From NCBI GenBank assembly GCA_903920455.1, contig CAIXLY010000007.1, positions 1-64,000 on the forward strand: a stretch of 64,000 nt of DNA. The letters run 5' to 3'. Shown piece after piece: positions 1 to 13,287 of the stretch. This stretch comes from an uncultured bacterium. Its GTDB lineage: Bacteria; Bacteroidota; Bacteroidia; Chitinophagales; Chitinophagaceae. A program made the translations under genes and the position numbers. Position 1 is the stretch's first letter, and every line of letters begins with the position of its first letter. The notes below the pieces were generated by a model. That model was not told the origin of the DNA. It saw only the letters and a program-made list of their open reading frames with translations, and did no database searches.

Positions 1-461
1 GGATAAGAAGAAGAAGAATAAAGATAACTAGCTGAGGAAAGCAACAAAAAAGACGACGAACATGTATCAAAGTTAATCATTTCAATTTCATTTTCATTCA
101 AACTATCTGAAATGTTATAACTGTTTAGATAATCATTATTATTGATAGAACTAATATATAAGTTACTCGAATCACTATGGAAAAGAAAATTAAAGATACA
201 ACTATAAATTTTAGAATATAAACTAAACATTGAATCAGCTTCGATGGACTGATGTGGTAATGATGGCGATTTCTTATTATTTTTAATTATGAAATAGTTA
301 TTTTTATTTTTAAATTTAGTTGTTGAGTTTGTGTGTTTTTTATTAATGTCATAAAATCTATTTAAACTTAAATCATCATCAAGGCATTTATTCCTCGCTG
401 CTTGCAGTAGCGGTTTTACCATTTGAGCGTCTTTGACGTGGTGAAATTTTTGGTGATTTAT
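1..461 (-). other. Long open frame running off the left edge; possible exon of a neighbouring eukaryotic gene
   Basis: On the minus strand one reading frame is open from position 461 to position 3 and continues past the window edge, about 153 codons with no stop. DNA this AT-rich should give a stop roughly every 12 codons. In-frame ATGs lie at 422 and 230. The first part overlaps the last TRAP-alpha exon in another frame. The translated segment is rich in Ser, Asn, Tyr and Lys, and I do not recognise it. It could be an exon of the next gene on the same strand, a read-through frame, or chance. Apart from this frame and a candidate polyadenylation signal, I see nothing in positions 1-387. Confidence 0.3.
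339..344 (-). promoter_or_regulatory. Candidate polyadenylation signal (AATAAA) of the TRAP-alpha gene
   Basis: The minus strand reads AATAAA here, 43 bases past the TAA stop of the TRAP-alpha reading frame, in AT-rich DNA. Its position fits a metazoan 3' untranslated region. AATAAA is common by chance in such DNA, so this is suggestive only. Confidence 0.35.
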
Positions 462-1577
462 CTATTTTTATTGAAAAATAAATAAAAAATAAATAATCTT
501 TTATCATAGCTAATAAAGTAAGACTATTACTTGTTTGTAAGTGTTCTTTTGGAATCCACTCAAAGTCAACACCGTCTGCGTTTGTTGAGCTACCATTTGG
601 TACTTTTTGGGAGCTGGTGGTGAATCCGGATATGCGCGCTTTCTTCTTGAAAACTGAAAAAAATTGCTGACCAACAAGTAACAAAAGAACAGCAACTGCA
701 GCAAGAAAGATATAAAGAAAAAATCTTTAAAAATAAAATAAAAAAAAAGTTAACAAACAACTTGAAATAAAAAATAAAAATTCTGAAATAAAATTACGTT
801 TCTCCATCGAAACCCTCATCTGGCTCAACTACATTAATTGTTTCGTTGAAAACAGCGTTGACGAATGATTTGCCATCTAAGCTCTTGTATCTCAAGTTGA
901 TCGTGAAGCCGAACTGTCTTGATGAAAAAGTCTCTGATGGCGTGAACAAGTACTCGAATGTGGCTTCTTTTTCTGATTCGACAACTTTGTTTAGTTCGAA
1001 TGTGGTGAACTAAAATATAAAAAAATTTAAATATCAATAAACCCAAGTTAAAAGCGGAATTTTAAATGCCTACGTTTTGAATGTAGTAGCTGAAGTCTTG
1101 TGGGTAACGGAATGAGCCCTCGATTGTTTCGACCAAAAAGTTTGATGTGCCGTTGTTGTGGAATCCGACTAATAATCTGGCTAGTTTACCAGCTGGCAAA
1201 TCGGTGCTTTCTGGCTGAAGGAATAGGACGTGCGTTTTGATAAAGGGCGAGGACAATACTTTTTCTTCCGCTGTTTCTTCATCGGCTTCAGTCTATGATT
1301 TTAGTTAAGCTTTAAATGCAGTTTAAGTATTATTTAAATTTGTGCATGGGTTTACTTCTGCTGCTGTTTGAGTTTCGCTTGGTGTTTCTTCGTTTATAAC
1401 TGCATCATCGTCGACTTCGTCTTCTTCTATTAAATTAAAATAGATAAATGTTAGGTTTCTTTAGGACTATGTTAGGTTTGCTGAATTTAATTTACCTGCT
1501 CTAACAGAAATTGGTGATAAAAATACACTCAATGAGATTAAAAATAATAAACCGATTGATTTATTTAAAAGTTTCAT
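388..1577 (-). CDS. SSR1: Eukaryotic translocon-associated protein subunit alpha (TRAP-alpha/SSR1), six exons
   Basis: TRAP-alpha is a single-pass ER membrane protein of the complex bound to the Sec61 translocon, where it assists insertion of secretory proteins. Exons on the minus strand: 1577-1496, 1426-1356, 1292-1074, 1009-798, 724-531 and 461-388. All five introns (69, 63, 64, 73 and 69 bp) begin GT, end AG and keep the frame. The spliced product is 283 aa; human SSR1 is 286. Order of parts: signal peptide (about 1-27), acidic lumenal stretch (28-60), lumenal domain with SFRYPQD and two N-glycosylation sequons (NGT, NET), the FDGET motif just before a membrane helix at about 196-217, and a basic cytosolic tail with DFEWIPKE. 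Base composition and introns differ completely from the rest of the window. A bacterium could not splice this gene. Source phylum is not determined. Confidence 0.93.
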
Positions 1578-1629
1578 TTTTTTTTCAAAATTTTAAATCT
1601 TTAGTTTAACTAAAAAAACCTAAAAAATT
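1578..1629. other. Junction between eukaryotic and bacterial DNA
   Basis: Only 52 bases separate the ATG of the eukaryotic TRAP-alpha gene (minus strand, 1577) from the ATG of bacterial amtB (plus strand, 1630). Neither gene has room for its own promoter, so the switch of genome lies within or very near this stretch. The A-rich leader just before amtB looks bacterial and the T/A run next to 1577 looks like eukaryotic 5' UTR, but the exact breakpoint cannot be placed. On the minus strand a T-run ending in TTTTTTTAG near 1603 could also be a splice acceptor. No repeat or integration signature is visible. Confidence 0.7.
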
Positions 1630-2979
1630 ATGAACACGAAAGCATTAAGAGACAAGTTGCCTTTCCTTGTGCTGGCTTTGGTTGCGATAGCCGCAATCTT
1701 TGTACCAGTTTTACCAAATTTTGAAGATAAAGCAGGTGTATACAATGGCGCTGATATTACTTGGATATTGATTGCCACCGCTTTGGTGTTTCTCATGACC
1801 CCTGGTTTGGCTTTCTTCTACGGCGGAATGGTACACAGAAAAAATGTGATATCAACCATGATAAAAAGTGTGGTTGCAGCAGGAGTTGTTAGCATCATAT
1901 GGATTGCCTTCGGATATAGCCTTTGCTTCGGGGATTCATTGGGTGGATTTGTCGGAAACCCAATGACACACCTTTTCTTTAAGGATGTTAACAATACTGA
2001 ACCATGGGGACTAGCTCCAACAATTCCCAAAACACTTTTTTCGCTTTTTCAGTTGATGTTTGCCATCATTACACCAGGACTGGTCGTTGGCGCATTGGCC
2101 GAACGTGTTAAATTTACCTCGTACATATTGTTTACTATATTGTTCAGCATATTAGTTTATGCTCCCCTAGCTCATTGGAGCTGGCACCCAGATGGCTTCT
2201 TGTTTAAATTAGGCGCACTGGATTTTGCAGGTGGTACCGTAGTACACATTTCAGCTGGTTGTGCTGCACTTGCAGGAGCCATCGTGTTGAAACGCAGAAA
2301 AGTGCATCTTGAAGGAGGCGAAATTCCACCTGCAAACGTTCCTTACATACTTATTGGTACAGGTTTGCTTTGGTTTGGCTGGTTTGGTTTTAACGCAGGA
2401 TCAGCATTGGGCGCAAATGGACTTGCTGTATCTGCATTCGCTACCACCAACACCGCTGCTGCTGCTGCAGGTTTATCATGGATGTTCTTCGATGTTTTAA
2501 AAGGAAAAAAACCTTCAGTAATGGGCTTTTGTATTGGTGCAGTTGTTGGACTTGTTGCCATCACCCCTGGGGCAGGTTTTGTAGGCATTCCACAAAGTAT
2601 ATTCATCGGAGTAATATCAGCAATCATTTCAAATGTTGCGGTTTACTACAAACAAAAATCTACCCTAGATGATGCACTGGATGTTTTCCCTTGTCATGGT
2701 ATTGGTGGTATGGTGGGCATGATCCTTACTGGAGTTTTTGCAACGAAAGCTGTAAATACTGCAGGCAATGATGGTTTGTTCTATGGAAATGCTGAGTTCT
2801 TTTTGACACAGCTTAAAGCAATGGGTGTAGCAGTAATCTATTCATTTGTCGTTTCTTTCTTGATCTTCAAATTCATCAACTTAATTCAACCACTTAGGGT
2901 AAGTGAAGAAGAAGAAGAATTAGGACTTGACCAATCACAACATGCTGAGAAATATGGCAGAAATCCTCAGAAAGCTTAA
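1630..2979 (+). CDS. amtB: Ammonium transporter, Amt/Rh family
   Basis: An inner-membrane channel that conducts ammonium/ammonia into the cytoplasm. The 449 aa match the family length, with about eleven hydrophobic helices. The pore twin histidines are visible as H206 (in GGTVVHISAG) and H356 (in DVFPCHGIGG), and the family signature AFFYGGMVHRKN is at 62-73. The C-terminal tail is short and acidic (EEEEELGLDQ). No glnK/PII gene lies beside it, although many amtB genes are paired with one; upstream sequence is lost because foreign DNA begins within about 50 bp of the start. Downstream is a beta-barrel protein, separated by a strong hairpin. First gene of the bacterial part. Confidence 0.95.
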   Translation: MNTKALRDKLPFLVLALVAIAAIFVPVLPNFEDKAGVYNGADITWILIATALVFLMTPGLAFFYGGMVHRKNVISTMIKSVVAAGVVSIIWIAFGYSLCFGDSLGGFVGNPMTHLFFKDVNNTEPWGLAPTIPKTLFSLFQLMFAIITPGLVVGALAERVKFTSYILFTILFSILVYAPLAHWSWHPDGFLFKLGALDFAGGTVVHISAGCAALAGAIVLKRRKVHLEGGEIPPANVPYILIGTGLLWFGWFGFNAGSALGANGLAVSAFATTNTAAAAAGLSWMFFDVLKGKKPSVMGFCIGAVVGLVAITPGAGFVGIPQSIFIGVISAIISNVAVYYKQKSTLDDALDVFPCHGIGGMVGMILTGVFATKAVNTAGNDGLFYGNAEFFLTQLKAMGVAVIYSFVVSFLIFKFINLIQPLRVSEEEEELGLDQSQHAEKYGRNPQKA

Positions 2980-7471: not shown

Positions 7472-7479
7472 TAGCTTTG
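7472..7479 (+). promoter_or_regulatory. -7 promoter box ahead of the TPP riboswitch (TAGCTTTG)
   Basis: Matches TAnnTTTG. Transcription starting a few bases downstream would begin at the first stem of the riboswitch (about 7485), which agrees with both calls. Confidence 0.6.
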
Positions 7480-7481
7480 TA

Positions 7482-7572
7482 GAGTTCCCGGGGTGCTCTG
7501 TGTATAACAGGGCTGAGATCAAACCCGTAGAACCTGATCAGGATAATGCCTGCGCAGGGAAGGAAAGACTCC
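7482..7572 (+). ncRNA. TPP riboswitch (THI box)
   Basis: Conserved blocks appear in order: GGGGTGC (7490 on), GGGCTGAGA (about 7510), ACCCGTAGAACCTGATC (about 7523-7540), GGATAATGCC, then GCAGGGAA. The 5' TTCCC pairs with the 3' GGGAA to close stem P1. It binds thiamine pyrophosphate and normally lowers expression of downstream thiamine genes. The gene start lies about 70 bases further on; a clear intrinsic terminator was not seen, so translational control is possible. Confidence 0.95.
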
Positions 7573-7641
7573 ACCCATCTACCTTTTCCTGTTTTGCAAT
7601 CCTGACCTGATTTTAATAATCGGACGTCAAACGCGATCAAC

Positions 7642-9837
7642 ATGAAAAAGCTTTTACTTATTGTACTGCTACTTCCTCGCTGCATTACTATTTTCGCTCA
7701 AGAAAATATTTCCGCAAAACTCAATGATAACCTACATAACTCGTCAATTTCGAAAGAGCAGAGATTGATGCCGCCAATTGAAATTAGGGCTGTAAGAGCA
7801 GGGATTGAATACCCTTTCACCCAGAACATGATACTTAAAAGCAAAATTGAGAAAAGCAATCTTGGACAGGATATTCCCTTTATGCTTAACCAAATACCTG
7901 GAGCAGTAATCAACTCAGATGCAGGGAATGGCATAGGCTATACGGGAATTCGTATCAGGGGTACAGATCCAACAAGAATCAACTTTACACTTAACGGCAT
8001 TGCATACAATGATGCAGAAGCACAGGGTGTCTTTATGGTCAACCTTCCTGACTTTCTATCTTCAACAAATAGCATACAAGTTCAAAGAGGGGTTGGTACA
8101 AGCAGCAATGGCAGCGGCGCTTTTGGGGCAACTGTAAATTTATTGACGAATGAAATTGAGGCAAAAGCATATGGTTCTCTGAGCAACAGTATTGGATCCT
8201 ATCATACCAGAAAAAACACAATCAAGGCTGGAACAGGACTCATCAACAATCGATACACCGTGGATGTTAGGCTTTCATCATTGTTAAGTGACGGATATGT
8301 AGATAGAGCATCTAGTAATCTAAAATCATTTTATGTTTCGACTGCTAGCATAAAAGAAAACTCATCACTGAGGTTGAATATCTTCTCAGGCAAAGAGAAA
8401 ACTTACCAAGCTTGGAATGGCATCACAGAAGAACAACTTAGCAACAATAGAAAATTCAATAGTGCGGGAACAGAAAAGCCAGGAGACCCGTATGAAAATG
8501 AAACTGACAACTACCAACAAACTCATTATCAATTATTCTACAACAAAAATATAAACAGCAGCTGGAAATTCAATGCTGCCTTGTTTGCTACCAAGGGTGA
8601 TGGGTACTATGAGCAGTATAAAGCAGAGGAAGAATATGAAAAATACGGATTAGCTAAGCCGCTTGTCAATGGAGAAGAAATTACAACATCTGACTTTATA
8701 AGACAGTTATGGCTTGATAACATATACTATGGATCTAATTTTTCCTTCCAACTTAAAGAGGCAAAAAAGGAGATCCTTCTTGGTGGTGGCAACAGCATTT
8801 ATGAAGGCAATCATTTTGGCAAAATTATTTGGGCTTCACATGGTGCCCCAAAAGATTTCAAATGGTATAACTTGGATGCTCGAAAAACTGAACAACATAT
8901 TTTTGGAAAATGGCTACAACAAGTTGGCTCAGTGTCAATATTCGGAGATCTCCAAATGAGATCAGTTCAATATTCGATTGGAGGATTCAGAAATACTCCA
9001 AATGTTTTGATAAACAAAAAATGGATATTCATAAATCCAAAAACTGGAATCCGGTACGTAAAAAATGGCTATAGCTCTTATCTTTCCTATGCATTAGCAA
9101 ATAAAGAACCCAACAGAGATGATTTTGAAGCAGGCAGCTCTGAAACGCCCAAACATGAAACTTTGCATGATATAGAAGCAGGAATTGAAAAAAAGTATCG
9201 CGGAATACAATTGTCTGCTACCTTCTATCACATGTACTATAAAAACCAATTGGTACTTACCGGAAAAATAAATGATGTGGGAGCATATACAAGAACAAAC
9301 ATCCCAACAAGTTCAAGAACTGGAATTGAATTAGAGGCAGAAATTAAATTAGCAAAATGGCTAACCCTTAGTAACAACATTGCACTGAGCAGCAACAAAA
9401 TCAGAAAGTTTACTGAATATGTTGACAACTATGATGATAATGAGGGGAAGCAACTGGCAACCAATTACGAAAGAACAAATTTGGCATTTTCTCCGGCGAT
9501 GGTATACAATGCTACATTATCAGCTAAGCCAGTAAAACAACTTGAAGTAAATTTGACCACAAAATATGTAGGTAGACAATATCTTGATAACAGTTCAAGA
9601 AAAGACAGAAGTTTAGATGCATATGCAATTCAAGACCTTCAATTTAACTACACTTTCTTGCCAAAAGGAATGAAATCAATTGAGCTAATGACACAAATAA
9701 ACAATATCTGGAGCAAACTTTATGCGCCAAATGGTTATACCTACTCCTACATTTATGGCAGCGAATTAGTGAAAAATAATTACTACTACCCAATGGCAGA
9801 AAGAAATTTCATGATAGGACTTAACATCAACTTATAG
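7642..9837 (+). CDS. TonB-dependent outer-membrane receptor, predicted thiamine (or precursor) transporter
   Basis: A 731 aa outer-membrane receptor that takes up substrate with energy from TonB. It has a signal peptide (about 1-20, ending IFAQ), a plug domain with motifs such as IRIRGTDPTRINFTLNGI and QVQRGVG (about 60-175), then a 22-strand-type barrel ending NFMIGLNINL. The start ATG at 7642 places the signal peptide correctly. No carboxypeptidase-like N-terminal domain is present. The TPP riboswitch in its leader is the reason to assign thiamine, a phosphate ester or a pyrimidine/thiazole precursor as substrate. No other thiamine gene lies in the window. Followed after about 100 bp by a small lipoprotein gene. 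Confidence 0.88.
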   Translation: MKKLLLIVLLLPRCITIFAQENISAKLNDNLHNSSISKEQRLMPPIEIRAVRAGIEYPFTQNMILKSKIEKSNLGQDIPFMLNQIPGAVINSDAGNGIGYTGIRIRGTDPTRINFTLNGIAYNDAEAQGVFMVNLPDFLSSTNSIQVQRGVGTSSNGSGAFGATVNLLTNEIEAKAYGSLSNSIGSYHTRKNTIKAGTGLINNRYTVDVRLSSLLSDGYVDRASSNLKSFYVSTASIKENSSLRLNIFSGKEKTYQAWNGITEEQLSNNRKFNSAGTEKPGDPYENETDNYQQTHYQLFYNKNINSSWKFNAALFATKGDGYYEQYKAEEEYEKYGLAKPLVNGEEITTSDFIRQLWLDNIYYGSNFSFQLKEAKKEILLGGGNSIYEGNHFGKIIWASHGAPKDFKWYNLDARKTEQHIFGKWLQQVGSVSIFGDLQMRSVQYSIGGFRNTPNVLINKKWIFINPKTGIRYVKNGYSSYLSYALANKEPNRDDFEAGSSETPKHETLHDIEAGIEKKYRGIQLSATFYHMYYKNQLVLTGKINDVGAYTRTNIPTSSRTGIELEAEIKLAKWLTLSNNIALSSNKIRKFTEYVDNYDDNEGKQLATNYERTNLAFSPAMVYNATLSAKPVKQLEVNLTTKYVGRQYLDNSSRKDRSLDAYAIQDLQFNYTFLPKGMKSIELMTQINNIWSKLYAPNGYTYSYIYGSELVKNNYYYPMAERNFMIGLNINL

Positions 9838-12745: not shown

Positions 12746-12795
12746 AATTGGTAATTGACAATAACTAATTTAGCAATATGTAGATATAAATACAA

Positions 12796-12833
12796 GAAAA
12801 GGTGAAGCCATACGCAATGCCTTCACCTTTTCC
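12796..12833 (-). terminator. Terminator after the ferredoxin gene
   Basis: AAAAGGTGAAG pairs with CTTCACCTTTT around a 13-base loop. On the minus strand it lies 18 bases past the ferredoxin stop and ends in TTTT; it then precedes ddl. Confidence 0.65.
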
Positions 12834-12850
12834 AATTATTAGTCATGAAC

Positions 12851-13198
12851 CTAAAGGTGCAGTTTCTCTTTCTTAGTCATGAGCTCTTCTATAGTCTCTT
12901 TGTACTGCTCATCTGGAACACAACAATCAACCGGACAAACAGCAGCACATTGAGGCTCTTCGTGAAAACCTTGGCACTCTGTACACTTGTTTGGAACAAT
13001 ATAGTATGTATCATTGCTAACAGGTGAATTTTTATGGTCTGCATCAACTACTGTACCGTCAAAAAGTGAAAATGAACCTTTAACTGTAGTGCCGTCTGAC
13101 ACCGCCCATTCAACTCCACCCTCGTATATCGCGTTATTTGGACATTCGGGTTCACAAGCTCCGCAGTTAATACATTCATCAGTAATCTTGATTGCCAT
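12851..13198 (-). CDS. 4Fe-4S dicluster ferredoxin
   Basis: A small cytoplasmic electron carrier of 115 aa. Two iron-sulfur binding sites are visible: [12 protein letters not shown] (12-23) and a second, spaced one, [13 protein letters not shown] followed by CPVDCC (about 73-93). The roughly 40-residue insert between the clusters is typical of the YfhL-like ferredoxins of Bacteroidota. It is divergent from an acyl-CoA reductase gene, an arrangement that suggests it could supply electrons for or be co-regulated with that enzyme; this is inference. Confidence 0.92.
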
Positions 13199-13211
13199 AA
13201 TATTTCAGTTT

Positions 13212-13238
13212 TTTGGGGTTAAAATTGGAACTATTTTT
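13212..13238 (+). promoter_or_regulatory. Promoter of the acyl-CoA reductase gene
   Basis: TATTTTTG (13231-13238) fits TAnnTTTG, with a TTG at 13212-13214. The spacer is 16 bases, shorter than the usual 19 or so. It gives a leader of about 45 bases. Confidence 0.45.
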
Positions 13239-13287
13239 GCCTGGAAATAGTAGGATAAAGATAATTGAATGATCTGAAAAACAGAAA

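Follow-up and report, generated by a model that had tools for sequence, protein, structure and literature searches.

This locus raises the question of how a split gene of eukaryotic type came to lie on a contig of a bacterial genome. The window analysed, a stretch of 64,000 nucleotides, comprises bases 1-64000 of contig C7 (151,189 bp), and the genome to which this contig belongs consists of 2,309,441 bases in 106 contigs, with scores of 100 for completeness and 0.06 for contamination. An earlier note on this DNA, which correctly described the contig as being of mixed origin, had listed three readings without choosing among them: a chimera that unites a host with its associated bacterium, the entry of a bacterial segment into a eukaryotic genome, and the reverse. 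The chimera is supported by the position of the foreign gene at a contig end, by the stranding of the native neighbour gene gltD at the end of contig C10 and by the fact that the TRAP_alpha family was not found in the 40 other genomes of the genus searched, as well as by the gltD-amt order in relatives and by the sister genomes, some of whose contigs break at this site too, whereas no positive evidence was obtained for the other two readings. Therefore, the presence of a TRAP-alpha gene on the bacterial contig is regarded, with a probability of roughly 0.96, as an assembly or library chimera, and thus as a database artefact rather than a case of gene transfer. The gene is real and eukaryotic, and it is its association with the bacterium that is artefactual. 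The wording of a host and its associate went too far, since the presence of DNA of both organisms in one sample would suffice.

The TRAP-alpha gene and its protein

The TRAP-alpha (SSR1) gene occupies positions 388..1577 on the minus strand, where six exons (exon 1, 1577-1496; exon 2, 1426-1356; exon 3, 1292-1074; exon 4, 1009-798; exon 5, 724-531; exon 6, 461-388) are separated by five introns of 69, 63, 64, 73 and 69 bp. With GT-AG borders at all five introns, splicing of this strand between 1577 and 388 yields one protein of 283 residues. The GC content is 12-25% in the introns, 39-45% in exons 2-6 and 24% in exon 1, and in-frame stops are present in introns 1-4. The presence of introns indicates that the block is genomic DNA and not a cDNA contaminant. 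Bacteria are not known to splice introns of this kind.

When compared with Pfam, the spliced protein matched TRAP_alpha (PF03896) with an E-value of 6.5e-30 and 104.1 bits, the curated cut-off being 24.7. Three distinct sequences of solved structures (PDB), each named translocon-associated protein subunit alpha, were also matched, the best chain with an E-value of 9.5e-57 over residues 35-272 of the 283. Additionally, two exons, taken unspliced, each match TRAP_alpha (E 9.2e-9 and 4.6e-6). This likeness is far above chance and the gene is confirmed, the coordinates given in the earlier note being correct. As read from the alignment, splices 3, 4 and 5 are located within the stretch aligned to solved TRAP-alpha chains, while splices 1 and 2 fall in or near a poorly aligned acidic part of the protein.

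The small size and AT-richness of the introns, the frequency with which GT and AG occur by chance and the open frame of intron 5 would also be compatible with a spurious splice model, and with bacterial non-coding DNA at 388-1577. However, such a model is refuted by the Pfam and PDB matches of the spliced protein, with three splices inside the aligned stretch, and its probability is practically nil.

Intron 5 lacks an in-frame stop, so that translation could continue through it, and no stop codon forces the splice that joins exons 5 and 6. When this intron was removed, the alignment with the TRAP-alpha chain scored 195.7 bits and covered chain residues 45-278; when it was retained, the score was 188.5 bits over residues 45-266, the alignment thus ending 12 chain residues sooner. 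On the basis of this homology and of the 14% GC content of the intron, its removal appears favoured, although not forced.

Exon 1 encodes a hydrophobic N-terminal leader of about 27 residues, recognised by eye. One membrane helix, encoded in exon 5, follows the lumenal domain, with the top hydropathy window at residues 195-213 aligned with the solved chains, and exon 6 encodes the tail. The protein resembles TRAP-alpha (SSR1) in its domain order, in the transmembrane helix and in a tail bearing the W-I-P block, and no tested feature separates it from an ordinary eukaryotic copy. TRAP-alpha works at the ER translocon, and in its source cell the gene would be expected to do this ordinary work.

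Homologues of TRAP subunits were reported in Asgard archaea (PMC10307638), and thus, as far as that report describes them, the TRAP family is not strictly eukaryotic; the TRAP-alpha of the window, with its introns of spliceosomal type, is of eukaryotic type. A reduced TRAP is described as likely in fungi too (PMC12572126), which, taken together with the Asgard homologues, indicates that TRAP-alpha alone is no proof of an animal. Judging from its likeness to the solved TRAP-alpha chains, which were listed without species names, the source eukaryote was probably an animal, and the rotifer suggested earlier is only a guess.

The contig end and the bacterial side of the window

The eukaryotic block forms the outermost 1.6 kb of C7, so that the foreign DNA stands at a contig terminus. 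From the TRAP-alpha stop codon to the contig end, AT-rich DNA with a GC content of 24% extends over 1..387, and is presumably eukaryotic intergenic DNA. At its outer edge, a lysine-rich reading frame on the plus strand (window 1-31), ending at position 31, was noticed by eye, and might conceivably represent the last part of another eukaryotic gene, convergent with the first and truncated where the contig stops. On the inner side of the gene, the junction zone between eukaryotic and bacterial DNA (1578..1629) comprises 52 bp with a GC content of 11.5%, within which the exact join is not placeable.

The first bacterial gene is amt, encoding an ammonium transporter (1630..2979, plus strand; Pfam Ammonium_transp, E 1.1e-122). 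Of the 36 other genomes compared within the genus, two gave no match to it and 34 gave a best match of 77-91% identity. Frames of at least 150 codons extend over 93.8% of 1630-64000, and a small SRP RNA of the Bacteroidales type was found in this bacterial part, along with a TPP riboswitch. The riboswitch, at 7479-7578 on the plus strand, lies directly ahead of a long ORF (7642-9837) that by eye resembles a TonB-dependent receptor. The sole other stretch of the window longer than 400 bp and devoid of a frame of at least 150 codons is 12770-13272.

In the assembly the two sides follow each other without interruption, and the gene stands there as genomic DNA with its introns, both of which would be expected if a segment of bacterial chromosome had been integrated into a eukaryotic genome and the junction were a real nuclear integration site. 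However, the bacterial side is part of a 2.31-Mb genome scored as fully complete and almost free of contamination, some 94% of 1630-64000 lies in such long frames, and gltD adjoins the same break on another contig. An integration of this kind is therefore considered very improbable.

With regard to its distribution, TRAP_alpha was detected in one of 41 genus genomes, the window's own. It scored above the cut-off in one of 395 genomes of the phylum, again the window's own, two others giving matches below the cut-off (E 3.2e-4 and 3.8e-4), and in none of the 14 control genomes. No relatives of the TRAP-alpha protein were found in genome_contigs and viral_contigs, a search from which records near the window's genome were possibly excluded.

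The gltD-amt order and the broken spacer

The surroundings of amt were compared in all 34 genus genomes with an amt match. In 27 of them, 559 bp or more of contig precede amt; in five, the contig ends 22-124 bp upstream of it, and in the other two inside it. It was verified that gltD lies on the same strand, 218-439 bp upstream of amt, in 24 of the 27 informative genomes, as measured from the last gltD codon to the amt ATG; in the remaining three, it was found 2.4-2.6 kb upstream (two genomes) or not at all within 2.7 kb (one genome). In the window's own genome, gltD, 83% identical to that of a congener, occupies C10:85-1305 on the minus strand, with its 3' end pointing off C10, and thus this native neighbour is found at the outer end of another contig and not on C7. 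Its stop codon lies at C10 81-79 and 78 bp remain beyond it, while no more than 52 bp of the gltD-amt spacer are left on C7. The displacement of gltD to the C10 end, considered together with the gene order of the relatives, indicates that the spacer was broken and that foreign DNA was placed on its amt side. The five sister contigs that end 22-124 bp upstream of amt indicate, in turn, that this spot often breaks.

The 78 bp retained past gltD show, by eye, a terminator-like hairpin followed by AT-rich sequence, and look bacterial. The AT-rich end of C10 also resembles by eye the first of two similar spacer repeats, in an alignment where the placement of C10 is rough and the hairpin misplaced. 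In 12 genus genomes (L004-L008, L010, L011, L013-L017), the gltD-amt spacers are 80-88% A+T, and two similar AT-rich imperfect palindromes with an ATTGAT-type element between them were recognised by eye. Among three loci tested, the repeat copies are spaced by 110 bp in L010 and L011; L013 shows a weaker pair (76%), spaced by 100 bp. These palindromes or repeats may be sites of amt regulation and may explain why contigs break here.

The same spacer is relevant to the transfer of the intron-containing gene into the bacterium, between gltD and amt. A real insertion at this site would also split the spacer in which the block sits, and the 78 bp left on the gltD side would be in line with it. However, this stretch looks bacterial, and the sister assemblies broke at the same spot in five of 34 cases. 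Moreover, the introns are intact and in-frame stops occur in four of the five, so that no protein would be made without splicing; the TRAP_beta partner was not found in the genome, and TRAP_alpha was absent from all 40 other genus genomes searched. This transfer is therefore held to be even less probable than the nuclear integration, and the two possibilities together, uptake of a complete, unspliced eukaryotic gene between these two bacterial genes or insertion of a bacterial segment into a eukaryotic nucleus, still account for only a very small share of the probability.

Contig ends of the assembly and the origin of the join

Under the preferred reading of a chimera, a eukaryote, probably a small animal, would have been sequenced together with a bacterium of a Chitinophagaceae genus. 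The bacterial assembly would have broken in the AT-rich, repeat-bearing gltD-amt spacer, one side of which would have ended as C10. To the other side, that of amt, some 1.6 kb of genomic DNA from the eukaryote, including a complete TRAP-alpha gene, would have been joined within the AT-rich 1578-1629. We suppose that AT-rich DNA was joined in a low-k or local-assembly step, or that a fragment was itself chimeric, and that the join was made by the assembler or the library and not in a living genome.

A total of 145 contig ends (84 left and 61 right, C7-left included) were examined, with 22 further short contigs reading as N and 23 readable right ends left out. Exactly 141 terminal bases are common to 27 pairs of these ends and one more pair shares 126, so that 56 of the 145 have a terminal-overlap partner. 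De Bruijn assemblers at a maximum word of 141 are described as leaving such terminal overlaps (PMC10914622), and, following that description, the 141-base overlaps are what short-read de Bruijn assembly with this maximum word would leave. The 27 exact overlaps could also suggest contig-to-contig joins. Neither C7-left nor C10-left has a terminal overlap with any other of the 145 ends read.

Positions 1-1629 were also compared by exact words, on both strands, with window 1630-64000 and the other contig ends. The longest word common to them consists of 16 low-complexity bases, and the comparison revealed no common repeat by which the join could be explained, which argues that the collapse of a long shared word was not the mechanism of the join. 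The lack of terminal overlap at C7-left and C10-left and of such a shared word stands as a point against the chimera, although a shared word would not be required if a low-k step had made the join or if the fragment was chimeric.

C7-left has the lowest outer GC content of the 145 ends (0.316; mean 0.403, SD 0.024) and the second-lowest ORF cover. The lowest ORF cover belongs to L168 (C74 right), which reads by eye as bacterial. Judged by GC content and ORF cover, with L168 alone read by eye, the other 144 ends yielded no recognisable further piece of eukaryotic DNA. This result argues against the nuclear integration, which finds no other eukaryotic edge there, and also counts against the chimera, since a eukaryote-rich sample might have left another piece.

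The case is similar to the inter-kingdom chimeric contig ends treated in the FCS-GX paper (PMC10898089), where 1-kb contaminants added to the ends of 100-kb sequences were tested and chimeras are said to be underreported: here too, about 1.6 kb of foreign DNA ends a contig of more than 100 kb. It differs from the chimeric ends described in that source in that the gene that natively adjoins the break could also be traced within the assembly itself. The genome was scored as 100% complete and 0.06 contaminated and yet holds a eukaryotic gene at a contig end, a join that these scores missed. An uncritical reading of the contig could give rise to the claim of an animal-to-bacterium gene transfer or of a bacterial TRAP. 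For such cases, a cheap test that requires no reads is to look at the ends of other contigs for the gene that would natively flank the suspect one.

Actin family, Pkinase and TRAP_beta were searched as weak markers for eukaryotic DNA. The actin family gave one match in the window's own genome, taken for bacterial MreB, and the same search matches six of the 14 control prokaryotes. Pkinase gave no match in the genome and matches in 11 of the 14 controls, and TRAP_beta none in the genome and a match in one of the 14 (Methanosarcina). Among the other ends, those with the next-lowest ORF cover, namely L155, L119, L123 and L159, were scanned with Rfam together with L168, L095, L032, L085 and L099, and a bacterial 16S rRNA gene end was detected in L119 and a tRNA in L085. 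An RF00177 search of the genome reported no 16S, though this 16S end, at positions 1-325 of L119, sits at the edge of contig C98.
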